In this document: in pieces, positions 605 through 17,691 of the stretch
How positions within the stretch are numbered: the stretch's first letter is position 1
Layout of the letters: every line of letters begins with the position of its first letter
IMG/VR virus record: IMGVR_UViG_3300049810_001306
Span: 1-28,390 of that record
Length of the DNA stretch: 28,390 bases
DNA from: a virus
Strand: one strand, 5' to 3'
The notes under the pieces: generated by a model
What the model was told of the DNA's origin: nothing
Databases searched by the model: none
What the model saw: the letters and a program-made list of their open reading frames with translations, nothing else
Position numbers and translations under genes: made by a program

Positions 605-1363
605 ATGAAACTCACTGACATCATACAAGAAGATCTCAGAGCCTGGTTTGGCAAAGGTTACAAGAGCCATGGCACAAAGAACATGATTGGCAAGACAGTT
701 CCAGATTGCCGCAAGTATCCAAAGAACGAATCTAAAGAGATTAAAACAAAAAAGAATCAAGATGGGTTTACCATTGATTTGTATGACGGCGGCAAGCATG
801 TTGGACAATACATACATGCACGTGAAGATGATATTGTTCAAAATCAAGCAGAGATTTTTCCCGAGTATCGCAACAAAGGTTACGGCACAATGCTATTACT
901 CGCGGCAATCAAAACAGCAAATGACTTGGGATTGGACTTTGAAGAAGATGCACAAAGCCTAACACCTGCAATGAGTAGAATATATGACGAACTAGATGAT
1001 AGTGGAATGATTTATGGCGGCGGCGGTTCATGGGCTATCAGTCCAAGTGGCGAATCAGAGCTTGAAGATTTTTTAAACGAAAACTTACGTGCGTGGTTCG
1101 GCAAAGGCAAGAAGGGCGGCGCTGGTGGCGGTGGCTGGGATCGTTACAATACCAAAGGTGAAAGAATAGGTAAGTGTGGTGACAGCAAAAAAGGCGAAGG
1201 CAAACCCAAATGTTTAAGCAAAAGCAGAGCCGCTAGTCTCAGAGCCAAAGGCGGCAAGAAAGCTGTAGCTAGTGCTGTGAACAAGAAGCGCAGGGACGAT
1301 CCCAACAAGAACAGAAGTGGCAAAGCTAAAAACGTAAGCAATACCACTAAAAAATACAAATAG
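605..1363 (+). CDS. Probable head-internal fusion: leader, GNAT-like domain, basic C-terminal domain
   Basis: This 252-residue protein starts with MKLTDIIQE, a capsid-targeting-like leader whose I7-Q8-E9 fits the T4 gp21 cleavage rule. Residues about 52-150 look like a GNAT acyltransferase: R89-N-K-G-Y-G-T95 is the acetyl-CoA-binding R-x-x-G-x-G/A motif. Residues 160-252 are very lysine-rich with a C-G-x-S-K...K-C-L-S-K-S pattern, which I remember from small basic proteins of marine phages (possibly DUF5872, not verified). The peptide LRAWFGKG occurs twice, at residues 11-18 after the leader and at 161-168 after a second L157-N158-E159. This suggests a precursor cut into two products. The acceptor of the acetyl-like domain is unknown. 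The gene follows the repeat protein by 1 base and precedes the LamG gene. Confidence 0.8.
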   Translation: MKLTDIIQEDLRAWFGKGYKSHGTKNMIGKTVPDCRKYPKNESKEIKTKKNQDGFTIDLYDGGKHVGQYIHAREDDIVQNQAEIFPEYRNKGYGTMLLLAAIKTANDLGLDFEEDAQSLTPAMSRIYDELDDSGMIYGGGGSWAISPSGESELEDFLNENLRAWFGKGKKGGAGGGGWDRYNTKGERIGKCGDSKKGEGKPKCLSKSRAASLRAKGGKKAVASAVNKKRRDDPNKNRSGKAKNVSNTTKKYK

Positions 1364-2851: not shown

Positions 2852-4138
2852 ATGAGATACTCACAAATAGCATTGCCCAAGGTAGTTGAAATACAGCGAA
2901 TACCTCGTGCCCACCTTACTGAAAGCAACCAGGAAGGTGGTAAAAATACGCACCTGGAACATCTGGAAGATCTAATATTTAACAAAGGTCACAAAGGTGC
3001 CAAGGAGAGCATTGACTATCTTTACAGTGTATACGAAATGCTCAAAGGTCATAGCAAGGGAAAAACAAAGATGACTCGTAAGTGGGACGGTGCTCCTGCT
3101 ATCTTTGCTGGCATCAATCCTGAAAACGGCAAGTTCTTTGTGGGCACTAAAAGTGTGTTCAACGCAGAGCCCAAGATAAACTATACTCCTGCTGACGTTG
3201 ATCGTAATCACGGACACGCAGCAGGTCTAGCTAGCAAACTCAAAGTAGCACTCAAATTACTCAAGCCACTCAATTGGAATGGTAAAGTAGTACAGGGTGA
3301 CTTCCTCTGGACAGGTGAAGACCTTAACAAAGGCACGGTGTCAGGTGAAAACTATGTGATGTTTACACCAAACACTCTTACCTATGCGGCACCTGCCAAC
3401 TCAGAGTTAGGCAAACGTATAGCAAGCTCGCCCATGGGTGTGGTATGGCACACTGAGTATGTGGGCGGTCCCACTCTGCAAGACATGAGTGCCAACTTTG
3501 GATTTGACCATAAGCAACTGGGCGATAGCAAGGGGGTGTGGCAAACTGATGCCGGCATGCCTGATGTATCTGGTACTGCTACACTAACTCAGGCAGAGTC
3601 AGACGCAGTATACAAAGCCATAGCAGACGCAGACAACTACTGGGCAAGTTTGAATCCCAATGTGTTTACATGGCTAGACTCGCCAGAGGGCAAGGATTTT
3701 AAAGTCAGACTCAAGAAGCATGTAAACGACAGAGTTCGCGCAGGTAGTTTTGGCGATCCACAGAAGTTTGCCAAGGAGTTTTTACAAGACTATCTTGCAT
3801 ACCTACAGGGCAAAGCAGATAAACTTAAGACTGAGAAAGGCAAAGAGCGTTATCTACAAAAGCAAGTGGAGATAGCCAAATATATTCAGACAAATGCAAC
3901 TGACATGGCTACCACATATGATCTCTATATGAGAGTCATACAAGCCAAACTCATGTTAATCAGAAAGTTAGAAACACTCACTGATCTCAATGTGTTTGCT
4001 CAGGATGGCGCTGACTTTGTTGCCACTGGCGACGAAGGTTTTGTGGCAGTAGACCACATGGGTTCTGGCATAAAATTAGTAGACAGATTAGAGTTCAGCA
4101 GGCTCAATTTTGGATCAGGCAAGCCTGGGGGCAAATAA
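2852..4138 (+). CDS. Ligase/nucleotidyltransferase-like protein, probably head-internal
   Basis: The 428-residue protein carries motifs that resemble the covalent nucleotidyltransferase (DNA/RNA ligase, capping enzyme) superfamily. K77-W-D-G80 followed by A-P-A resembles motif I (K-x-D-G) with the adenylated lysine. V147-Q-G-D-F resembles motif III, E395-G-F-V motif IV, and I407-K-L-V motif V. The distance from motif III to IV is much longer than in ordinary ligases, so a helical insertion (about 245-375) would be needed. From memory the family is an uncharacterised phage family (perhaps DUF6267). The N-terminal 24 residues end in L22-T23-E24, a possible prohead protease site, so the enzyme may be packaged. 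No clear ribosome binding site precedes ATG 2852. The stop overlaps the next start (TAATG), so the genes are translationally coupled. Enzyme activity is inference. Confidence 0.7.
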   Translation: MRYSQIALPKVVEIQRIPRAHLTESNQEGGKNTHLEHLEDLIFNKGHKGAKESIDYLYSVYEMLKGHSKGKTKMTRKWDGAPAIFAGINPENGKFFVGTKSVFNAEPKINYTPADVDRNHGHAAGLASKLKVALKLLKPLNWNGKVVQGDFLWTGEDLNKGTVSGENYVMFTPNTLTYAAPANSELGKRIASSPMGVVWHTEYVGGPTLQDMSANFGFDHKQLGDSKGVWQTDAGMPDVSGTATLTQAESDAVYKAIADADNYWASLNPNVFTWLDSPEGKDFKVRLKKHVNDRVRAGSFGDPQKFAKEFLQDYLAYLQGKADKLKTEKGKERYLQKQVEIAKYIQTNATDMATTYDLYMRVIQAKLMLIRKLETLTDLNVFAQDGADFVATGDEGFVAVDHMGSGIKLVDRLEFSRLNFGSGKPGGK

Positions 4139-4911
4139 TGGATTTACAGATATTAAATACGCTTACTGAAAGTCAACTATATCGAAGCAATGGCATGGGT
4201 AAAAATTTAAAATCAGATACTGTGTCTGAGTTACTTTATTTAAACACGCTTGCTCTGTCTCTTATGATACAGGATCGCGCACAGCACAATACTGCCAAAC
4301 AATATGCAAAAAAGACTACCAATTATGGAAATTATTTGTTGTTTAGAAATAGCGCAACTGATTTATATACTCTGGCGCATCAGGTCAGATATCCAAATTC
4401 TAAATCTCTTAGCCTGTCTGACAAACAAAAAGGCATAGATTATCTGGAAAGTCTTAATTTTGCAGACAAGGCGCATTTTATAGTATTACAACGAATTTCC
4501 CAAGGCGACCGAAATATTTTGCAAACTCTGTCTGCCTACCTAGTTCGTTTGGAACGACAACTTGCTGTGCCTGCCAGACTTAGATCATTGCGAAGGGAAG
4601 TTTTGAATTGGAAGGACAGCAGTCAAAATAACCGTGAACGCACAGTAGCCAAGATAGCTGATGAGATGCGCAGAAAAGGCAAAACAGGTGATTTACTGAG
4701 ATCATTACAGAACATGAGCAAATACAAGCAGTTCGATAACCCAGAAAAATCTGGAGTATTAAAAAGGGCCGCCATTGCTGGCGCCGGCGCTGTAGCAGGA
4801 GCTTCTCTGGGCAGAAAGATAGCTACTAAAATGGATAAGGATGCTGATAAATACTCTAAAGCAGGCGCTGGCATAGGTGCACTAGCAGGATATTGGGCAG
4901 GTAAAAGATGA
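4138..4911 (+). CDS. Probable head-internal protein with C-terminal glycine zippers
   Basis: I do not recognise the family of this 257-residue protein. It begins with a leader ending L9-T10-E11, like its neighbours, so a prohead-protease-processed internal protein is likely. Residues 20-205 are mainly helical and basic. The C-terminus has two glycine-zipper segments, 211-226 (A-A-I-A-G-A-G-A-V-A-G-A) and 241-255 (K-A-G-A-G-I-G-A-L-A-G-Y-W), separated by a charged hinge. This is the pattern of glycine-zipper proteins that insert into or stabilise membranes. A role in crossing or sealing the host membrane during genome entry is possible but is inference. The start overlaps the upstream stop by 1 base and the end overlaps the next gene by 4 bases (ATGA), so the three genes 2852-5423 look like one coupled set. 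Confidence 0.75.
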   Translation: MDLQILNTLTESQLYRSNGMGKNLKSDTVSELLYLNTLALSLMIQDRAQHNTAKQYAKKTTNYGNYLLFRNSATDLYTLAHQVRYPNSKSLSLSDKQKGIDYLESLNFADKAHFIVLQRISQGDRNILQTLSAYLVRLERQLAVPARLRSLRREVLNWKDSSQNNRERTVAKIADEMRRKGKTGDLLRSLQNMSKYKQFDNPEKSGVLKRAAIAGAGAVAGASLGRKIATKMDKDADKYSKAGAGIGALAGYWAGKR

Positions 4912-5423
4912 GACTGACAGAAATTTTTGAGGATAATAATCCACGCAAAGAAGTAGAATTTGACATGGCTTGGCATAATAAGAAAGACGCTATCCCACAA
5001 AAGTATCATTCAAAAGTTCGCACTTTGGCCCAAACGCAGTTAGCCAGAGATGAATCACCTAGTGACGCAATTTCAACTGCATGGGACATAACTAAATCGC
5101 AATTACAAAAGCAAGATAAGACTAAACAAAAATCAGCAACTGTTCAGAAAGATAATTCGCCATCAGCAGACAGAGTTAGACAGGACGCCTTGGGCAGAAA
5201 CCTTAAACACGACCGCTACTACCGACCATCGGATGCCAAAGTATCATCCCCAAGAGCGATGCCAAGTGCTCCTGCAGGTATTGGGGATGCATTATCCAAA
5301 AGCACTCCCAGGGCATTATTGAAAAAAGCTCTGGCCCCTGTGGATAAAACACTGGGAGATTTACTTGACGTTGATAAAGCACTGAGTGGTAACTTAAACA
5401 AGAATAGTCGCCGCAAAAGATAA
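4908..5423 (+). CDS. Basic head-internal-type protein with MRLTEIFE leader
   Basis: This 171-residue protein starts with MRLTEIFE, where both L3-T-E5 and I6-F-E8 fit the gp21-type cleavage rule. The rest is strongly basic and low in hydrophobic residues. A helical segment around 38-70 (K-V-R-T-L-A-Q-T-Q-L-A-R) is followed by a Ser/Pro/Lys-rich linker, a short helix around 140-160, and an N-S-R-R-K-R end. No catalytic motif is visible. DNA binding inside the head is plausible from charge. The ATG sits in an ATGA overlap with the gene before, with AGGT just upstream. It is the last gene before the late promoter at 5439. Confidence 0.75.
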   Translation: MRLTEIFEDNNPRKEVEFDMAWHNKKDAIPQKYHSKVRTLAQTQLARDESPSDAISTAWDITKSQLQKQDKTKQKSATVQKDNSPSADRVRQDALGRNLKHDRYYRPSDAKVSSPRAMPSAPAGIGDALSKSTPRALLKKALAPVDKTLGDLLDVDKALSGNLNKNSRRKR

Positions 5424-8824: not shown

Positions 8825-9121
8825 ATGCGTTTATCAGATCTAACAGAGGGCGTTGAATTATTTGAAGCCAGAATGGTCTGGCGTAAGGTCGGCAATAAAA
8901 TTACTCGTGCTGTAAGATGCACAGGCGGCCCCAGAAAAGGCAGAGTAGTCAAATCTGGTAGTGATTGCAGTAAGCCCATAGATATTAAAAAGCGTATGAC
9001 ACTCAAGAAAACAAAAGCTCGCATGGGCAAACGCATGAGTCGTAAGGCTCAGCGTAGTAAAAGAATTAATCCTGCTAGCAAAAGATTGCGTAGCATGAAC
9101 AGGCCCCTGAGAAAGAGATGA
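8825..9121 (+). CDS. Protamine-like packaged protein
   Basis: The 98-residue protein begins MRLSDLTE-GVELFE-A, with two successive L-x-E sites (L6-T-E8 and L12-F-E14). Everything after residue 15 is extremely basic, with about one third Lys/Arg. It includes V-R-C-T-G-G-P-R-K-G-R-V-V-K-S and P-I-D-I-K-K-R-M-T-L-K-K-T-K-A-R-M-G, blocks I recall as strongly conserved in marine T4-like phages. Two Cys residues flank the first basic block. Cleavage would leave a histone- or protamine-like peptide that could condense phage DNA in the head or bind host DNA after injection. The start directly follows the upstream stop and the end overlaps the giant gene by 4 bases. Confidence 0.82.
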   Translation: MRLSDLTEGVELFEARMVWRKVGNKITRAVRCTGGPRKGRVVKSGSDCSKPIDIKKRMTLKKTKARMGKRMSRKAQRSKRINPASKRLRSMNRPLRKR

Positions 9122-12100
9122 AGGCAAAAGATCTCAGAACACTGGAAGTATTCCTAGCTGAATATAGTGGCGTGGGTCAGCAACCTGTTAAACCTGGGGC
9201 TGCTCCCAGTGGCCCAGTTCCCAGTGGTCAACAAGCACTTGACACTGCAGATAGGGCAAAAGCAGAACGAGACAGAAAATCTGCAGGATTACCCAAGGAT
9301 GATGTTAATACTGATCTAAGAGCAAAAGCATCTGCTGGGGAATTATCTCAACAACCCAATGATACTACTGACGTTGAGCCCACCAGTGATGAAAAAGTAG
9401 TTAAACCACCTCAAAATTCAGGAAGTAATATCAGCAAAGTACAATCAACTGGTAGCCCCACAACTGGCAAGGGACAAAATCAAGCAGTATCCGAAACAGA
9501 CAAGCTCAAAAAATTTAAGCCCAGAGGTGCATTTGGCCGCAGTGCTGTTAAGAGAACACTTAAAAAGAAGTTGCCCACAGGCAGACTACTCAGGGAAGCA
9601 GACCAACCTGAGTTCATGATTGAGATAAACTTCAACAGCAAGGATACTGTCAAGAAAGCACTCTCAGGTCCAGTAAACTGTGGCTTTGAAGCAGAACTTA
9701 TCTTCCCCAGAATACAGCAATTTAATGATAACGACGATGCCTACGGTGATGATTTTGCCATGATAGACAGAATTAATAATTCTGAACATGTGGATGAGAT
9801 CAGAGATCTATACAAAAAGACTTTATTCGACTATGACAATGCCTATGGCGAAGCCTTCTTCGAATACCAAATGGAACAGATGTCCAGAGATTTTGAGGAC
9901 GAAGAATGGATCAATGACTTTGTAAATTATAGTATCGACGACAATGACATAGTAGATTACAGAAAAGAAACATTGGATACTGCCAAGGAAGACGACCCCG
10001 CCGAATATGAAGAGCGTCTTGATTGGGAAGAAGATGCCTGGGGCAGAGAGTTAGCAGAACTTCGTTACAAGGACGACATGCAGGAATATTGGATGGAGAA
10101 CTTGGACGATGTTAAACTGGAAAGAATGGTTAACAGATTTGAGGACAACAACAGATACGGCATCGACAACTGGATGATGGATAGTGGTGAAGCAGGCAAT
10201 GAATATTGGACAGACGCCAATGACTTACTACAGCAGGGTGATAGTGAATCTGAACTTTCGGGCAACCCCAAATACCAAGCCTATGAAGAAGTAGAGAAAT
10301 GGTTGTTTGATTGGGCCAAGATGAATAGCCATAATGCTGACATAGAAGTAGGAGGCTATCACGAAACTGAAAGTCATGATGGCTGGCGCATAGAAGAAGA
10401 TCAGAGTTTGGATGGTGACGGTGCTGGCTTTGAAGTTATTAGCCCAGTGTTTGACAACCCCAAAGACATGCTCAAGGAGATCCAGAGCCTGTTTGAGTAT
10501 GCCCAGGACGCCACAGAAACTAATCGCTCAACTGGCTTACATGTAACCATGAGTTATGCTGAAGAGTCAGATGTACCCACTAACATTGCCAAGACTAAAA
10601 TGTATGTGTTAAGTGGAGCTGACAACCAAGCCAAGGTATGGAACAGAGAGTTCAACTCATACAGCCAGAGCACCAAGGTTCAGGTCCTACAAGCACTCAG
10701 AGCCATAGCAACTGGTAACGCATCAGACGATAACATCAAAACCATGGACGACATGATTACGCAGTTTGATGCCACTGGTGAAGCAAACAAAGTTGGCAGA
10801 CAAAGCACAGTAAATGTCAAGCAACGCAAAAACTCTGCTGGCAATAGCCTGGTAGAGTTCAGAGCAGCCGGAGGTCCTGGTTACACAGGTAACTTTGATC
10901 AAGTAGCCAAGGATGTAATCAGATACAGTGCTACTATACAAGCAAGTTATGACGAAGATGCCTACAACCGTGAGTTTGCTAAAAAGATGTACAAGTGGCT
11001 ACAAGATGCGCAGGACGTGGAAGATCCGCAGGCTTACAGTGCTACCAAAGGATTAAGCCCACAGGATGTTTATCGTCAATCAACCGGTGATACTACTTTC
11101 GATGTAGACAATCATCCTCTCACAAACTACATGATGAAGTTTACTCACAGCACATTCCAGGACAACGTCAAAAAGACACTTACCAGATTCTTTAGTAGTC
11201 TCAAGAACCAACAAGAGTATCAGGCAAAACACAACCTCAATGAGTACGAAGAGAACCCAGAAGAAGTATATGCTGAGTTTAAGTCAAGCACTCGTGAAGC
11301 ACTAACTGACTTGATGGTATATTTGTCACTGAGCGCAAACACTGACAAGATGAGTACCAAAGAACTCATGGCTATCAGAAAACTCGTGAGTCAACATGGC
11401 ATCGATGCTGAACAGTTTGTTAAGGCACTCAAGCGTGATAGTGGTAACCCTAGGCTAATACCCGACCCCAGAGACAAGGCTGACCGTACCAGAATATTTA
11501 AGCGTGGCGGTAAGTTGATTGGCAAGGATCTCATGGCAGATGCACCTGAGAAGATGTCAATTTCTGTTGCGCCAGATCAGGTAGCACTACTAACAGCAGA
11601 TGGGCTGAGATACATGCAGCAATATAGCGACACTGAAGATGCGTACCTGCTCTTAAAGAAAACAGATTATAATTACATTCAGATGGAAATCAAGGCCCTG
11701 AACGAATTGTTAAATAAATCCAAGGCTAATCCAGACGATGCTGAATTAGATGTTGAAGTCAGAAAGACGGCATTTGATTTAAGCAAAACTGTCAGTACAC
11801 GATTCAACCGTGAGTTGGATGTGGAGCGCATTATAAATAAACATGGTTTACAATATGCTCTGATGTGGCAGAAACAACTTGCGCGTCCATATAATGATAC
11901 CAAGATGGCACAAAATTTAAAACAATTAGGAGTAGAAGTGAAACCCACAGAATCAGATGCACCCTTCGAGAGTTTGATGTCTAAGTTTGAAGGTAAGAGT
12001 TTACAGGAACAACTTACTATACTTGGCAAACTAGACAAGCAGAAGATTGATGAAGCTTATAAAAAAATTACTTTCAGAGAAAATACTGTGCCTGACAATA

Positions 12101-13905
12101 GGACAGTTACTATAGTTAATGATTTATTGAGTAAACATTTCCCAGCCAGCGATCTGAACAAGCAAATGGACGCATTTACTGCGATCCCCATGCCTGAAAT
12201 GATTGATAGCTTTAGATCCATTGAGCGCACACAGGGTCCTGATGCTTGTTGTAGAGGTGTATTATGTCAATTTATAAATTACTTACATCCCACATTAAAA
12301 GACCAAATAAACAGTGATTTCTGTGATGGAAAAACATCAGATTTAGGAAAGTCACAATGTAAGCCATGCAATGAAGCATGGCAAGGCAATCCTAAAATTA
12401 AAAAGACTGGGCAATGGAGCGGTAAGACTATCGCAGAACTACAAAAACTTGCGAGCTTACTAAGAAAAAAGGATAAGCGCACAGCCGCGGAACAATCCAA
12501 ACTCAAGCAGATTAATTTTGCGATTAGATCCAAGAGAGATTGGAAAGGCGACACCAAAGAAAATATTTCAGAAAATCTAGAGGAAGCCAAAGGCATAATG
12601 GGCAGAGTTGCTGGTGATAAATTTATCAAGGGAAATCAACAGTTGGAATTTCAGGAAGTAAAAGTCTATCCCGAAGAAAGCACCCAATATCAATCTGCTG
12701 AGGAGCGTGATCAAGCTATTAAATCTTTTGAAGAACAAGCGGGCCAGATCATCTGGACAAACAACCCCAATAAAGGAATGTTGGCTTTCGGTGTTGCCAC
12801 ACTTACAGATCCCCTTAATAATAACACGCCCACCTACTGGGGCAGATACTTTAAGCAAAAGACTACAAATATGATGGGTGTCTGGCAGAATAACCAAGTG
12901 CCTACTGGCTGGAAAGTGCAGAAGGCTGGGGCACTTAAACTAGATATTGGTATTGATCCGCAACATCTAATAAAAGTAGAAACTCCATTTGCTAGCATAG
13001 ATCAAGTTATTAATACAGTAAAAAAGAATAGCCAGGGCAACCCCTTGCAGAAAGAGTTGATATCGGGATTGCAACAAATAAAAGCAGGCCAAAATCCAGT
13101 GTTTGAAAATTGTGCTCAGCACATCCCAGCACTAAGAGATTACTTTGGTGAAATCATGGGCCCATGCGCACTCATGGCTGACATGGTTGGTGGACAAGCA
13201 GAGGACGCTAACCAAGCATTGCTTAAAGGTGCTGGTTGGGGCAATAGCCAGGTATTTTGGCCACAGGCTATGAATTATGCGCTGGTGGATAGTGTGTTTA
13301 TAGGACCGGACGGACAGGAAGTGGGTATAAGTAGTAAGGGCGGCAAAGGTGCCAAAGCAAGTGCTAAAAATATTGCTGATGCCATTGCAAAAGCACCACC
13401 AAAATTGATAAAAAAATATAAATTTACTGTAGCAATCATTCAACTGGTTGAACAATCATCAGCACAGGAAGGTCCTTTTAGGATTGCCGAATATCTCAAA
13501 GCGTTGCCTGCAGGACTGGAAAAAGAAATCATGGGCTATGTAAAAAGCTCAAAATCAGACTATGTGGGACTCAGTGATGATGCTAAGGAGCTTTTTAACT
13601 ATGGAACGCCCAAACAAGGAGCGCCTGGTTTTAACACTGGTTTGGCTCTTACTGCATTGCTAGCCAAGAAAGTAGCAAAAATAGTAAATGAAAACCCCAC
13701 ATTTAGTGCTGGCGCTTTGTCGTTTCTAAATCAATCAAGTATTGTACAATTATATTGCAAGATGGGAAAACAAGGAAATAATGCTAGAGTTACTGGATGG
13801 GACGCTATATATCCTCCCAACTTTAAGGGCAGAGTAGTATTGGATGGCAGTAAAAACTATTATAGTTCCAGAATTGGTGGCAAATTTGCCTTTGGATTTG
13901 TTTAA
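9118..13905 (+). CDS. Giant head-internal-type protein with amidoligase-like domain
   Basis: This is a 1595-residue protein. The leader ends V-F-L-A-E15, nearly the T4 IPIII F-I-A-E. Residues 16-155 are a Ser/Pro/Lys linker ending in L158-R-E160. Residues about 185-625 fit the COOH-NH2 amidoligase family (glutamine-synthetase-like fold): C-G189-F-E191-A-E193, D432-G-D...G-F-E439-V-I-S-P443, G473-L-H475-V and E580-F-R582 with G-G. A long acidic helical insertion (about 205-410) splits the domain. Cys residues at 1044, 1045, 1050, 1069, 1081 and 1084 could bind zinc. A possible internal cut follows L1154-E-E1156. The last 440 residues form a separate module with W-G-R-Y-F (1241-1245), a D-S-V-F...I-S-S-K-G-G-K-G stretch (1391-1411) and a YSSRIGGKFAFGFV end. 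The start overlaps the upstream stop (ATGA). Forming amide bonds on host or phage proteins or peptidoglycan is possible; the substrate is unknown. Confidence 0.82.
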   Translation: MKAKDLRTLEVFLAEYSGVGQQPVKPGAAPSGPVPSGQQALDTADRAKAERDRKSAGLPKDDVNTDLRAKASAGELSQQPNDTTDVEPTSDEKVVKPPQNSGSNISKVQSTGSPTTGKGQNQAVSETDKLKKFKPRGAFGRSAVKRTLKKKLPTGRLLREADQPEFMIEINFNSKDTVKKALSGPVNCGFEAELIFPRIQQFNDNDDAYGDDFAMIDRINNSEHVDEIRDLYKKTLFDYDNAYGEAFFEYQMEQMSRDFEDEEWINDFVNYSIDDNDIVDYRKETLDTAKEDDPAEYEERLDWEEDAWGRELAELRYKDDMQEYWMENLDDVKLERMVNRFEDNNRYGIDNWMMDSGEAGNEYWTDANDLLQQGDSESELSGNPKYQAYEEVEKWLFDWAKMNSHNADIEVGGYHETESHDGWRIEEDQSLDGDGAGFEVISPVFDNPKDMLKEIQSLFEYAQDATETNRSTGLHVTMSYAEESDVPTNIAKTKMYVLSGADNQAKVWNREFNSYSQSTKVQVLQALRAIATGNASDDNIKTMDDMITQFDATGEANKVGRQSTVNVKQRKNSAGNSLVEFRAAGGPGYTGNFDQVAKDVIRYSATIQASYDEDAYNREFAKKMYKWLQDAQDVEDPQAYSATKGLSPQDVYRQSTGDTTFDVDNHPLTNYMMKFTHSTFQDNVKKTLTRFFSSLKNQQEYQAKHNLNEYEENPEEVYAEFKSSTREALTDLMVYLSLSANTDKMSTKELMAIRKLVSQHGIDAEQFVKALKRDSGNPRLIPDPRDKADRTRIFKRGGKLIGKDLMADAPEKMSISVAPDQVALLTADGLRYMQQYSDTEDAYLLLKKTDYNYIQMEIKALNELLNKSKANPDDAELDVEVRKTAFDLSKTVSTRFNRELDVERIINKHGLQYALMWQKQLARPYNDTKMAQNLKQLGVEVKPTESDAPFESLMSKFEGKSLQEQLTILGKLDKQKIDEAYKKITFRENTVPDNRTVTIVNDLLSKHFPASDLNKQMDAFTAIPMPEMIDSFRSIERTQGPDACCRGVLCQFINYLHPTLKDQINSDFCDGKTSDLGKSQCKPCNEAWQGNPKIKKTGQWSGKTIAELQKLASLLRKKDKRTAAEQSKLKQINFAIRSKRDWKGDTKENISENLEEAKGIMGRVAGDKFIKGNQQLEFQEVKVYPEESTQYQSAEERDQAIKSFEEQAGQIIWTNNPNKGMLAFGVATLTDPLNNNTPTYWGRYFKQKTTNMMGVWQNNQVPTGWKVQKAGALKLDIGIDPQHLIKVETPFASIDQVINTVKKNSQGNPLQKELISGLQQIKAGQNPVFENCAQHIPALRDYFGEIMGPCALMADMVGGQAEDANQALLKGAGWGNSQVFWPQAMNYALVDSVFIGPDGQEVGISSKGGKGAKASAKNIADAIAKAPPKLIKKYKFTVAIIQLVEQSSAQEGPFRIAEYLKALPAGLEKEIMGYVKSSKSDYVGLSDDAKELFNYGTPKQGAPGFNTGLALTALLAKKVAKIVNENPTFSAGALSFLNQSSIVQLYCKMGKQGNNARVTGWDAIYPPNFKGRVVLDGSKNYYSSRIGGKFAFGFV

Positions 13906-14063
13906 TGGACCATTTAACTGAGGTCAACAAGACATATTTAGGACACCTAGCTCATGCTTGGAGCATGGCATTTGCTTTACTCATACATGGCTTGTGTCCT
14001 TGCTTGTTGGAAAATTACGCTAGCAATAAGATGTGTGACCATGAGACTGACTCAATTAAATGA
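13905..14063 (+). CDS. Small DUF6356-like membrane protein
   Basis: A 52-residue reading frame starts in a TAATG overlap with the giant gene and ends 23 bases inside the superoxide dismutase gene. It reads M-D-H-L-T-E-V-N-K-T-Y-L-G-H-L-A-H-A-W-S, then a hydrophobic stretch with A-F-A-L-L-I-H-G-L-C-P, then a polar end. From memory this matches DUF6356, a small family with one membrane helix found in bacteria and phages, whose members begin in a similar way with H-L-x-x-V-N-x-T/S-Y. It fills the otherwise empty 135 bases between two clear genes. Function unknown. Too short for most gene callers, so it may be missed in related genomes. Confidence 0.65.
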   Translation: MDHLTEVNKTYLGHLAHAWSMAFALLIHGLCPCLLENYASNKMCDHETDSIK

Positions 14064-14577
14064 GGAAAAGCAAAAACTAGCACTGGAGAAACTCCAGGCA
14101 GATCGCTCAGACTACGAACCATTTCTCAGTAAAGAAAGCATTGACATCCACTACGGTAAACTCGCCAGGGGTTATGTAGACAGATTCAACGCAGGCGAGG
14201 GCGACAAAGATTTTAACCAGGCTGGTGCTTTTTTGCACAACATCTATTTCCCACAGCTCAAGGAGCCTGGTGGATCGAACATTCCCAGAGGTGCTAGTTT
14301 AATGCTCATTAATTCAAAACACGGCAGTTACGACAAGTTTAAGTCTGAAGTAACCAAAGTAGCAATGTCTATACAAGGCTCAGGCTGGGTATACATGGCT
14401 CGCAACGGTGAAATTAAAACTATTAAAAATCATGCCTTGCGTTCAGACATAGCAATGCTCATAGACTGGTGGGAGCATAGTTGGTTTACCGACTATGGAT
14501 CAGACAAGTCCAAGTATCTGACTAACTTCTGGAAGGCTGTGGATTGGGAAGTAGTGAACCAGAGGATACTCACATGA
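14041..14577 (+). CDS. Iron/manganese superoxide dismutase with packaging-type leader
   Basis: The 178-residue protein matches the Fe/Mn superoxide dismutase family, which turns superoxide into oxygen and hydrogen peroxide. Y-E-P-F-L-S-K-E-S-I-D-I-H37-Y is the first helix with metal ligand H37. A-F-L-H66-N-I-Y-F gives the second ligand, and D142-W-W-E-H146 the third and fourth. G-S-G-W (113-116), G-S-Y-D-K-F-K and the final N-F-W-K-A-V-D-W-E-V-V-N-Q-R are also typical. The gap between H37 and H66 is shorter than in bacterial enzymes, and the chain is somewhat shorter than the usual 190-200 residues. The start at 14041 gives MRLTQLNE, ending in L6-N-E8 like the neighbouring leaders. The longer in-frame ATG at 13954 would add an unlikely Cys-rich stretch in the frame of another gene. 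Fe versus Mn preference cannot be judged. Confidence 0.88.
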   Translation: MRLTQLNEEKQKLALEKLQADRSDYEPFLSKESIDIHYGKLARGYVDRFNAGEGDKDFNQAGAFLHNIYFPQLKEPGGSNIPRGASLMLINSKHGSYDKFKSEVTKVAMSIQGSGWVYMARNGEIKTIKNHALRSDIAMLIDWWEHSWFTDYGSDKSKYLTNFWKAVDWEVVNQRILT

Positions 14578-14753
14578 GACTTTATGAGATAATATCACAA
14601 CTAGATGTTGCAGAAGGCAACAAAGCACAGAAAGGCATACCCGCTAACGCTACTCAGGCAGAGTTAAAGAGCGCCCGTAAAGCAGGCGGTGACAAGGGTA
14701 AGCGAGCACACTGGCTTCTTAACATGAGAAAAGGCAACAAGAAGAATAAGTGA
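14574..14753 (+). CDS. Very small basic head-internal-type protein
   Basis: The 59-residue protein starts MRLYEIISQLDVAE, which has L3-Y-E5 and a weaker V-A-E. The rest is basic, with A-T-Q-A-E-L-K-S-A-R-K-A-G-G-D-K-G-K-R-A-H-W-L-L-N (written here in separate residues) and an M-R-K-G-N-K-K-N-K end. I recall the H-W-L-L-N-M-R-K-G tail in small proteins of marine T4-like phages. No enzyme motif. ATG 14574 forms an ATGA overlap with the superoxide dismutase stop; an upstream in-frame start at 14544 would hide the leader. Likely a DNA-binding internal peptide by charge. Confidence 0.75.
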   Translation: MRLYEIISQLDVAEGNKAQKGIPANATQAELKSARKAGGDKGKRAHWLLNMRKGNKKNK

Positions 14754-15064
14754 AATATTTAGTATCACTCGTAATACCCATTACAGTAAGTGCTACTGAC
14801 ATGACTACCAGAGTAGAAGTTTTCCAATACGATCATGGAGCTTGGCGTTTTACAAATACCACTGATAAACACCTGAGATGTAACATAGGGCTCACTGAGT
14901 ATTCACGCCTGAGTACCAGTGTTATGCCAAAGTCTCCCCCTTTCAAAGAGCCCGTTAAATTACCTAGCACCGTGGGTAACAGAAACTTTAGCTTGGAACC
15001 CTATGATACCTTTGTATATAGCCGCAAAAATGTGGGCACTGTGCATTGCAGACTAGACAAATAA
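14750..15064 (+). CDS. Small protein with probable signal peptide
   Basis: The 104-residue protein begins at GTG 14750 in a GTGA overlap with the upstream stop. Residues 1-15 (M-K-Y-L-V-S-L-V-I-P-I-T-V-S-A) form a short hydrophobic stretch with an A-x-type end, which looks like a signal peptide or an N-terminal anchor. The remainder is beta-rich (V-E-V-F-Q-Y, W-R-F-T-N, F-V-Y-S-R-K) with two Cys residues. It has no L-x-E leader, unlike the genes on both sides, so it may act in the host envelope, for example in lysis or exclusion of other phages. No family recognised. Confidence 0.65.
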   Translation: MKYLVSLVIPITVSATDMTTRVEVFQYDHGAWRFTNTTDKHLRCNIGLTEYSRLSTSVMPKSPPFKEPVKLPSTVGNRNFSLEPYDTFVYSRKNVGTVHCRLDK

Positions 15065-15087
15065 AAAATTTTTTAATAAATATACAT

Positions 15088-15366
15088 ATGAAGATTTATG
15101 AAATTCTTACAGAAGAAGATTCAGGTGTTTCCAGTGGCGACAGCGGGTCTGCAGATTCTGGTACTGCCACAAATGGTGGTTCCAATTCCGCTGAAGCCAC
15201 ACCTTCCACAGATGCATCAACTGCTACTACTAGCAGTGATGTTGCTACTGTGATTTATCCCTTGGGTTCCATGATTACACGTCCATACTTTAATTATGTT
15301 AGACCCAGCAAAAAGTGCAAATATGGCAAGAAAAAAGACGGTAAATGCAAGAAAAAACCAGGGTAA
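15088..15366 (+). CDS. Head-internal-type peptide with Ser/Thr linker and basic Cys tail
   Basis: This 92-residue protein starts MKIYEILTE (L7-T-E9 cleavage-like). Residues 10-55 are a low-complexity Ser/Gly/Thr/Ala stretch. The end is Y-P-L-G-S-M-I-T-R-P-Y-F then a lysine-rich K-K-C-K-Y-G-K-K-K-D-G-K-C-K-K-K tail with two Cys residues. I chose ATG 15088, which puts the leader at the N-terminus; an in-frame ATG at 15046 lies inside the previous gene. No good ribosome binding site is seen; AATAAATA at 15075-15082 lies only 5 bases before the ATG. The tail pattern appears in other marine T4-like phages from memory; function unknown. Confidence 0.75.
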   Translation: MKIYEILTEEDSGVSSGDSGSADSGTATNGGSNSAEATPSTDASTATTSSDVATVIYPLGSMITRPYFNYVRPSKKCKYGKKKDGKCKKKPG

Positions 15367-16012: not shown

Positions 16013-17302
16013 ATGAACATTACCGATTTCAATCCAACTGGCAAGACCAAGTTGGGCAAAATGAATAAACTTTTAAAAGAACAGTTTGGTATTAAACTAA
16101 ACAGCGCACCTGAGCGTAAAAAGCTAGAACGAGTCATGGAGACTGCCAATCGTGCACTAATACAGATCCGTGGTAGCCAAAAGAAGTTCCATCTGGATCC
16201 AGAGTACATTAAGTTCTTGGGATTGCGTGATGCAGCTGAAACCATGATTAACGAAGGAAACTATGTTAAGTCTCCTGCTTATGAAGCCATGGCAAACAGT
16301 CTCAGAACTACTATTCAGGAACTCATGGATGCTGGCTACAGCAAAAATGACGCTTGTGCTGAGACCATGAACCGCGCCAGAATGAACGGTGCCTGGGCAT
16401 TTGCTGAAGATGTAATGAGCCCCATCGTTGCTAGTGCCGCTACGCAATATGTAGCAGAATACGAAGTAGCCAATGACCCCGCGTTGGTTGAGTATGATGC
16501 CGCTAGTAACATGTCAGATGTTTTGATTGCTGAGATGGCTCGTGAACTTAACATGAGAGTAGAAGATACTGAAACACTGGGCGCTATTGCTGAGAAGATT
16601 TCAATGTTTGCTGGTGTATCAGGCAAGACACCCGAATCTATAGTAGAGTTTTTAAACGGACTCAACGAAGGTGACATGGCTAACGGCATCCAGATGTTTG
16701 GACGCAAGATAGCGGCTGAGAATGGGGGCTTTAACTTAGCGGCCATGGACGCCAAGAAGGCTAAAAAGGATTCGTTTGAGTATGGTGGCAAAACGTTCCC
16801 AGTCAAAGAAGCACAAGAAGCCGCTAGACGTGGCGATGTTGGCATGTTTAGTGATTTGATTGACAGCATCCTGAACGAAGAAGTTGATGTAGAGCAAGCA
16901 GAAGTTGTCATGGCTGTACGCAGTTTGGCTGATGATGTACAGAGTCAGATCGAGCGTATCTCAGACATGATGAACAAAGACGTTCCTGCTATTGCTGATC
17001 AGATGAGAGCAGAGCAAGGAGCATCACAAGCGCAGCAGTTTTCGGACACCATGAGCAACACACTGGGAACATATCTTGAAAGTGCCAAGGCATGCAAAAC
17101 CGCAATCGATAGTCAGGTAATGTCACTGAGTGGTGAAGCACCTGCTAATGATATGACTGGCTTGGGTGATACTGGTGCCATGGATGCCATGGATGCACCA
17201 GCTGATACTGGCGATGACCTGGACTTAGATGCTCCAGCAGACACCAATGAGCCAGCAGCTTCAGGCCCTGAATCCGAACCACTGGGCCGCGCAGAAGTAT
17301 AA
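16013..17302 (+). CDS. Conserved virion-associated protein of marine T4-like phages
   Basis: The 429-residue protein starts M-N-I-T-D-F-N-P-T-G-K-T-K-L-G-K-M-N-K-L-L, a beginning I remember from marine T4-like phage genomes, where the protein is conserved but of unknown function. It is almost entirely alpha-helical. Residues about 375-429 form a very acidic, Asp/Pro/Ala-rich low-complexity tail. There is no membrane segment. It heads a late transcription unit (box at 15975, GGGGAT ribosome binding site near 16003) whose other genes encode a leader-bearing protein and tail or fibre proteins, so a virion or assembly role is likely. The next gene starts inside its stop (TAATG). Confidence 0.8.
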   Translation: MNITDFNPTGKTKLGKMNKLLKEQFGIKLNSAPERKKLERVMETANRALIQIRGSQKKFHLDPEYIKFLGLRDAAETMINEGNYVKSPAYEAMANSLRTTIQELMDAGYSKNDACAETMNRARMNGAWAFAEDVMSPIVASAATQYVAEYEVANDPALVEYDAASNMSDVLIAEMARELNMRVEDTETLGAIAEKISMFAGVSGKTPESIVEFLNGLNEGDMANGIQMFGRKIAAENGGFNLAAMDAKKAKKDSFEYGGKTFPVKEAQEAARRGDVGMFSDLIDSILNEEVDVEQAEVVMAVRSLADDVQSQIERISDMMNKDVPAIADQMRAEQGASQAQQFSDTMSNTLGTYLESAKACKTAIDSQVMSLSGEAPANDMTGLGDTGAMDAMDAPADTGDDLDLDAPADTNEPAASGPESEPLGRAEV

Positions 17303-17691
17303 TGCGCTTAACAGAACTCTTTGAGGACATGGGAGTTTTAGACTCCCCCTCTGCTGATATAGTAAATCCCCAGGAGGATCTGGTATCAGCAGTTTCTGAT
17401 ATCATGAGCATGGCAATGGCAGACGATATCACAAAGATACCCACACGAACGGTTCAGGACATGCTCAGAAGATCAGGCTATAATGTTAGCACAGATGAAC
17501 TTATACTTGCTCTTGACCAGTCAGGATTTACTAGCAGTCAGGATAAGAAAATGATCACAACCAAGGATGAAATACCACCAGACGTGGTGCAGTCAGACTA
17601 TGATGCACGTGAGCCAGAGGATGGCACTGATACAGGCGTGGACGTTGAAAAAATTGCTAGTGATCAAGCCATGAAGGATATTAAAAAATGA
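17302..17691 (+). CDS. Acidic head-internal-type protein with MRLTELFE leader
   Basis: The 129-residue protein starts MRLTELFE (L6-F-E8 cleavage-like), nearly identical to MRLTEIFE of the gene at 4908, although the codons differ. Unlike the other leader-bearing proteins it is acidic. A helical middle part (R-T-V-Q-D-M-L-R-R-S-G-Y-N-V-S-T-D-E-L, written residue by residue) looks like a small helix-turn-helix-type fold with no clear DNA-binding signature. It is coupled to the acidic protein before it and overlaps the next gene by 4 bases. No family recognised; it could be a scaffold-type or partner protein rather than DNA-binding cargo. Confidence 0.75.
   Translation: MRLTELFEDMGVLDSPSADIVNPQEDLVSAVSDIMSMAMADDITKIPTRTVQDMLRRSGYNVSTDELILALDQSGFTSSQDKKMITTKDEIPPDVVQSDYDAREPEDGTDTGVDVEKIASDQAMKDIKK

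Follow-up and report, generated by a model that had tools for sequence, protein, structure and literature searches.

A leader-bearing Fe/Mn superoxide dismutase of large T4-like phages, probably carried in the phage head

Introduction

Is the superoxide dismutase (SOD) encoded on a viral DNA fragment from IMG/VR an enzyme made for the infected cell, or is it cargo of the phage head? The question arises from the N-terminus of the protein. Capsid-targeting propeptides of 10-20 residues are removed by gp21, with cutting after Glu in T4 and in giant phages (PMC9958956, PMC5694885), and the T4 ipII and ipIII sequences follow the same rule with a ten-residue leader ending FIAE/A (the slash marks the cut here and below). 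The SOD begins with a short extension of this type. We analyzed the gene, its relatives and its surroundings in the whole stretch of 28,390 bases (the window).

The SOD gene and its product

The features at the locus are as follows.

13905..14063, + strand: DUF6356 gene, 52 aa (PF19883, 5.1e-9), overlapping the SOD start
14041-14577, + strand: Fe/Mn superoxide dismutase gene, 178 aa (coordinates and translation exact)
14041..14064, + strand: leader MRLTQLNE, residues 1-8, a predicted capsid-targeting propeptide with a predicted cut after E8 (L-N-E/E)
14065..14577, + strand: predicted mature SOD, residues 9-178, with ligands H37, H66, D142 and H146 and the outer-sphere His131

The translation of 14041-14577 starts MRLTQLNEEKQK. 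A longer in-frame ORF opens at 13954, within the overlapping DUF6356 gene (13905-14063); because of this overlap, and because a relative that is 93% identical (L001) uses the same ATG as the window, the start was assigned to 14041. A Sec signal peptide was ruled out by inspection, as the leader is short, ends in Glu and has no hydrophobic core.

Two Pfam domains were matched above the cut-off, Sod_Fe_C (5.7e-21) and Sod_Fe_N (5.3e-7); a PHROGs search with the SOD gave no match to a SOD family. The four Fe/Mn SOD ligands named in the original prediction (H37, H66, D142 and H146) are present and are invariant in alignments of 26 and 44 phage sequences, together with Y45 (equivalent to Tyr34), W144, E145 and H131. 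The model, for which 44 phage sequences served as input, has a mean pLDDT of 94, and values below 50 are confined to residues 1-7. The top matches of this model in a Foldseek comparison with the PDB are all Fe/Mn SODs. Beyond the disordered residues 1-7, the protein as modeled is a confident two-domain SOD fold.

Conservation and descent of the leader

Relatives were obtained from scans of viral contigs, many of them environmental IMG/VR contigs; three of the scans listed at least about 560-595 relatives each. At least 303 phage SOD genes among the matches listed were grouped into 92 clusters at 80% core identity, and a leader was scored where hydrophobic-x-Glu (h-x-E) occurred at residues 6-20 of the N-terminal extension, counted from the nearest ATG. 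A leader ending in h-x-E was identified in 89 of the 92 clusters among the matches listed, 86 with the nearest ATG and three more with the true upstream ATG. L233, L481 and L499 had appeared leaderless, which was an artefact of an internal ATG; the upstream ATG restores the leader, and that of L499 (MRLEQLDE/S) is near that of the window (MRLTQLNE/E). When the extensions of the 92-cluster set were shuffled, 20.6 clusters on average, and 33 at most, had a site among the matches listed, compared to the 89 observed. A first, smaller set had given a leader in 44 of 46 clusters (shuffles: mean 11.5, maximum 24 of 46). As the clusters are phylogenetically related, the shuffles overstate their independence. 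Genome-wide, leader-like starts are found on 3-8% of genes.

The leader is 8 residues long in the window SOD and 8-18 in its relatives. P3 is Leu or Ile in 40 of 44 clusters, and P1' is Ala, Ser or Gly in 35 of 44. Leaders of unlike types, such as M[KR]xxDFLTE/, MxxIRxLIxLVE/, MxYNFIxxxxxE/ and MKNFxHFxE/, have the terminal motif in common. Judged from these alignments, position, cleavage motif and selective constraint are what the leaders share; their sequences differ. Two comparisons bear on selection: the window and L001 leaders differ by three synonymous and no nonsynonymous changes, and one 36-member SOD family has a pN/pS of 0.28 for the leader, compared to 0.14 for the body, with F5, I6, E12 and G13 invariant in the leader region. 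The protein sequence of the leader is under purifying selection.

Sampled cellular SODs (from genome contigs) have no extension and start ~10-20 residues later in register, which is approximately the start of the predicted mature phage form. The original prediction had proposed aligning phage and bacterial dismutases to learn if the leader is confined to the phage forms, and had named close leaderless homologues with an identical N-terminus as a finding that would refute packaging. Both points were followed up: 89 of 92 phage clusters have the leader and the cellular SODs lack it, and the search for such homologues did not refute the packaging reading. Three clusters (L057, L478 and L081) have no N-terminal leader, and L057 starts where the cellular proteins start.

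In the tree, a branch with 100/100 support separates all phage SODs from the cellular ones, and the phage proteins form one clade on a long branch. The leaderless L057 and L081 are nested within this clade, so that loss of the leader is the simpler explanation. Bootstrap values had not converged, and the places of the PA5oct and Vibrio phage 2.275.O proteins are unsure because of their long branches. Of the three SODs that lack an N-leader, two have a C-terminal tail: those of L478 and of Vibrio phage 2.275.O (L081:10004-10573). The tail of the Vibrio phage protein, SVNIRHLINFISK, resembles the N-leaders of two upstream neighbors, MFTIRHFIDVMNE/A and MKKTTEAQKIRSIIGTLEE/A; this resemblance hints at a putative C-terminal packaging tag. 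A search for relatives of this Vibrio phage SOD found none.

Other leader-bearing genes in the window

Leaders of the same type were identified at seven other genes of the window (605, 4908, 8432, 8825, 14574, 15088 and 17302), which bears out the earlier remark that MRLTQLNE is of the type carried by other window genes, and makes the match of the SOD leader more than chance. The genes concerned, and a structural gene discussed below, include the following.

605..1363, + strand: GNAT-like acetyltransferase (Pfam Acetyltransf_1, 4.6e-5), leader MKLTDIIQE/D
4908..5423, + strand: 171-aa protein, leader MRLTEIFE/D
8825..9121, + strand: very basic 98-aa protein, leader MRLSDLTE/G..LFE/A
14574..14753, + strand: basic 59-aa protein, same-type leader MRLYEIISQLDVAE/G
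15088..15366, + strand: 92-aa protein with a Lys-rich C-terminus, leader MKIYEILTE/E, late-promoter box AATAAATA 5 nt before the ATG
16013..17302, + strand: virion structural protein, homologue of PA5oct gp247
17302..17691, + strand: 129-aa protein, leader MRLTELFE/D, homologue of PA5oct gp246

The SOD gene had been described as lying between basic internal-type genes. This is correct for the downstream side, where the products of 14574 and 15088 are basic and leader-bearing, but the immediate upstream neighbor is the DUF6356 gene, which is not of that kind, and 14750-15064 has no leader of this type. The acetyltransferase at 605-1363 is, from its predicted leader, another candidate for a packaged enzyme. 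The 1595-aa product of 9118-13905, which belongs to no clear family, starts in a leader-like way (MKAKDLRTLEVFLAE/Y) and is possibly a large packaged protein.

Leader-like starts were also seen elsewhere. A DUF6267 protein of the window (2852-4138, 1.8e-102) and its look-alike at G003:203227-204522 both have one, and both lie near SOD. Directly upstream of SOD in another relative, a 216-aa protein (L271:5335-5985) has a late-promoter box and the leader MRINEIITE/S; it has no Pfam match and is kinase-like by eye. A protein of ~190-230 aa starting M[KR]xxxxxxxES occurs in five distant genomes (G003 230491, G011 17280, G013 273609, G018 31680 and Vibrio 2.275.O 233091), seemingly orthologous by its N-terminus and with the leader grammar in all five. 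In the 340-kb genome G003, five of the six strict leader matches are located around SOD at 189.9-202.4 kb, within 12.6 kb.

Prohead protease and late promoters

A protease able to remove such leaders would be of the gp21 type. PF03420, the gp21-type protease, is encoded in all eight SOD contigs that carry a gp23 capsid gene, and also by PA5oct and Vibrio phage 2.275.O. No gp21 protease was found in the window, a 28-kb fragment that is too short. The propeptides of the relatives' capsid proteins contain L-x-E/S and L-x-E/G sites, like those of the SOD leaders.

Among the matches listed, 50 of 92 clusters have a T4-type late-promoter box, TAAATA, 3-7 nt upstream of the SOD ATG, and in 47 of 92 the gap is 4-5 nt; across all ATGs of the loci, the background frequency of TAAATA at 3-7 nt is only 0.46%. 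The window SOD has no late-promoter box before its ATG and is probably transcribed from upstream. With the T4 late-promoter spacing, a box ending 4-5 nt upstream would put the transcription start at or near the ATG. The boxes at 47 of 92 SOD starts, and that at 15076-15088 in the window, would thus imply leaderless late mRNAs.

A homologue flagged by mass spectrometry in phage PA5oct

Experimental information on a homologue comes from Pseudomonas phage PA5oct, whose gp223 is a SOD homologous to that of the window (42% over 148 aa), with the leader MNDSIKKYISIAE/A (ending ISIAE/A). It is annotated as a hypothetical protein in PA5oct (NC_071039), and its counterpart in MIJ3 is annotated sodB. 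The PA5oct genome paper of Lood et al. reportedly lists 93 virion-associated proteins; by our count of the record NC_071039, 93 coding sequences carry an ESI-MS/MS flag, and gp223 is among them. So are gp246 (leader KIKDILVE/S) and gp247, the homologues of the window genes at 17302 and 16013. PA5oct and its Wroclawvirus relatives thus resemble the window phage in a homologous, leader-bearing SOD, which is MS-flagged in PA5oct, and in homologues of these two genes.

The flagged list also includes thymidylate synthase, ribonucleotide reductase, ligase and FtsH, and may contain carry-over that does not belong to the virion. The flag on gp223 is therefore support for packaging, not proof, since the list contains such likely carry-over enzymes. 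The loose leader motif showed no significant enrichment among the MS-flagged PA5oct proteins, and the strict pattern was found in 4 of 93 flagged proteins compared to 0 of 142 (p=0.024). No discussion of the PA5oct SOD as a packaged protein was found in the literature.

Proposed packaging and site of action

The leader is of the type that serves as a removable head-loading tag, and the SOD is for this reason probably carried in the particle. With good though incomplete confidence, we propose that this Fe/Mn SOD is carried in the phage head by means of a T4-type leader, that it is cut and packed, and that it is most likely ejected. The suggestion that the SOD may be head-carried, made originally from the window alone, thus gains support from the leader survey, the gp21-type proteases, the late-promoter boxes and the PA5oct MS flag; for the window phage itself, packaging, cleavage, ejection, activity and benefit are all inferred. 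The precursor would be made late in infection, and its residues 1-8 would direct it into the scaffolding core of the prohead, where a gp21-type prohead protease would cut the leader off after Glu8. The mature SOD (~20 kDa) would be packed together with the DNA, would most likely enter the next host with it, and could remove superoxide before phage genes are expressed.

These last two steps are inferred from two precedents. In T4, IPI is an internal protein that acts after injection (PMC3012670). IPI, IPII, IPIII and Alt resemble the phage SODs in a short N-terminal propeptide with hydrophobic-x-Glu before a small residue, in a gp21-type protease in related genomes, and in that unrelated cargo proteins have only the leader in common. 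The T4 cargo differs in being a small specific inhibitor or an ADP-ribosyltransferase, whereas the phage SOD is a conserved metalloenzyme whose packaging is inferred. The second precedent is the Cu/Zn SOD of chlorovirus PBCV-1 (a245r), the product of a late gene, which is packaged in the virion and associated with less early superoxide (PMC7019647). It is likewise a late viral, packaged dismutase proposed to lower early superoxide, but it is of an unrelated family, belongs to a eukaryotic algal virus, and has no described T4-type leader or prohead cleavage (PMC7019647).

The literature search turned up no report of a SOD in phage virions. The earlier statement that no head-packaged SOD is established consequently holds for phages, as far as the literature was searched, but not for viruses at large: because PBCV-1 packages a Cu/Zn SOD, the idea is new for phages only. 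As far as could be found, SOD is a new cargo on a known packaging route.

What the packaged enzyme would do is less certain. We put forward only tentatively that this widespread family of T4-like phages injects SOD with its DNA as a redox counter-defense that acts before phage gene expression, against a superoxide response of the host or a burst caused by infection. A live rival, which we nonetheless regard as unlikely, accepts the leader-directed packaging and places the function inside the particle, where SOD would shield the enclosed DNA and proteins against superoxide while the particle is in sunlit or oxic water, instead of acting as an injected effector. The leader survey and the late-promoter boxes serve this reading equally well, and the environmental origin of many relatives is in its favor. 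It would require a continuing source of superoxide, though, the H2O2 product would stay close to the DNA while no catalase was seen in the vicinity, and the T4 internal proteins of known role act after injection (IPI, PMC3012670).

Gene neighborhood and the metabolic alternative

The gene had further been described as not lying among metabolic genes. This is true of the window but not of the family as a whole: an IF-1 gene is located just upstream of SOD in 12 of 45 clusters, and an Fe-S assembly gene (IscA/IscU-type) just downstream in 17 of 45. In large T4-like phages, a kept cassette of IF-1, SOD and IscA-type carrier/IscU/ferredoxin was observed at L003:5720-6844, L002:6530-6862, L265:6649-7068 and other loci.

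These neighbors suggest a metabolic cassette, and the SOD could be an ordinary auxiliary metabolic enzyme made in the infected cell and spread with late genes, its extension being incidental (translation-start context or stability); the three leaderless homologues would then mean that the leader is dispensable. We consider this improbable. An incidental extension does not account for a leader that varies freely in sequence, yet keeps h-x-E before Ala, Ser or Gly and is under purifying selection. The neighbors do not share the feature, as IF-1 has no leader and the Fe-S carriers have only their usual, native N-terminal helix. The late-promoter boxes sit at SOD itself and not at IF-1, and the PA5oct homologue is MS-flagged.

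The active site compared to cellular SODs

In the SodFM classification, SodFM3 and SodFM4 have a C-terminal water-coordinating His, and SodFM4 loses the last His of HXXXHH (PMC10172142). The phage SODs resemble these cellular groups in fold, ligands and the C-terminal outer-sphere His (H131, in place of the outer-sphere Gln). They differ in their long branch, a shortened, compact alpha-hairpin, the N-terminal leader, and the positions of His30 and Tyr166. The first of these is Leu in all aligned phage sequences (Leu41 in the window), and the second (window residue 149) is Phe, Ala or Met. In the phage clade, these two replacements go together. Neither His of the terminal pair in HXXXHH is retained: the last one is gone, and its partner is replaced by Leu41. 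The enzyme is, by comparison of residues only, unusual in its second shell, and its catalytic activity is inferred only. A packaged SOD-fold protein with altered catalysis, such as a metal store or a host-binding factor, would fit the replaced His30 and Tyr166 positions and the short hairpin, but is very doubtful given the invariant four ligands, Y45, W144, E145 and outer-sphere H131, as in SodFM3/4 (PMC10172142).

Implications

Compact, leader-tagged SODs occur in many large T4-like phages, freshwater and marine, and are probably carried in the particle and delivered with the DNA. If this is true, hundreds of environmental phages put a redox enzyme into their heads, and superoxide during DNA entry would be a real obstacle to phages. 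A general enzyme, rather than a specific inhibitor, would serve as an ejected internal protein, providing a testable case. Phage sod genes, otherwise read as auxiliary metabolic genes, would become genes for probable virion proteins, and the rule of a leader plus a cleavage site would find packaged enzymes from sequence alone.
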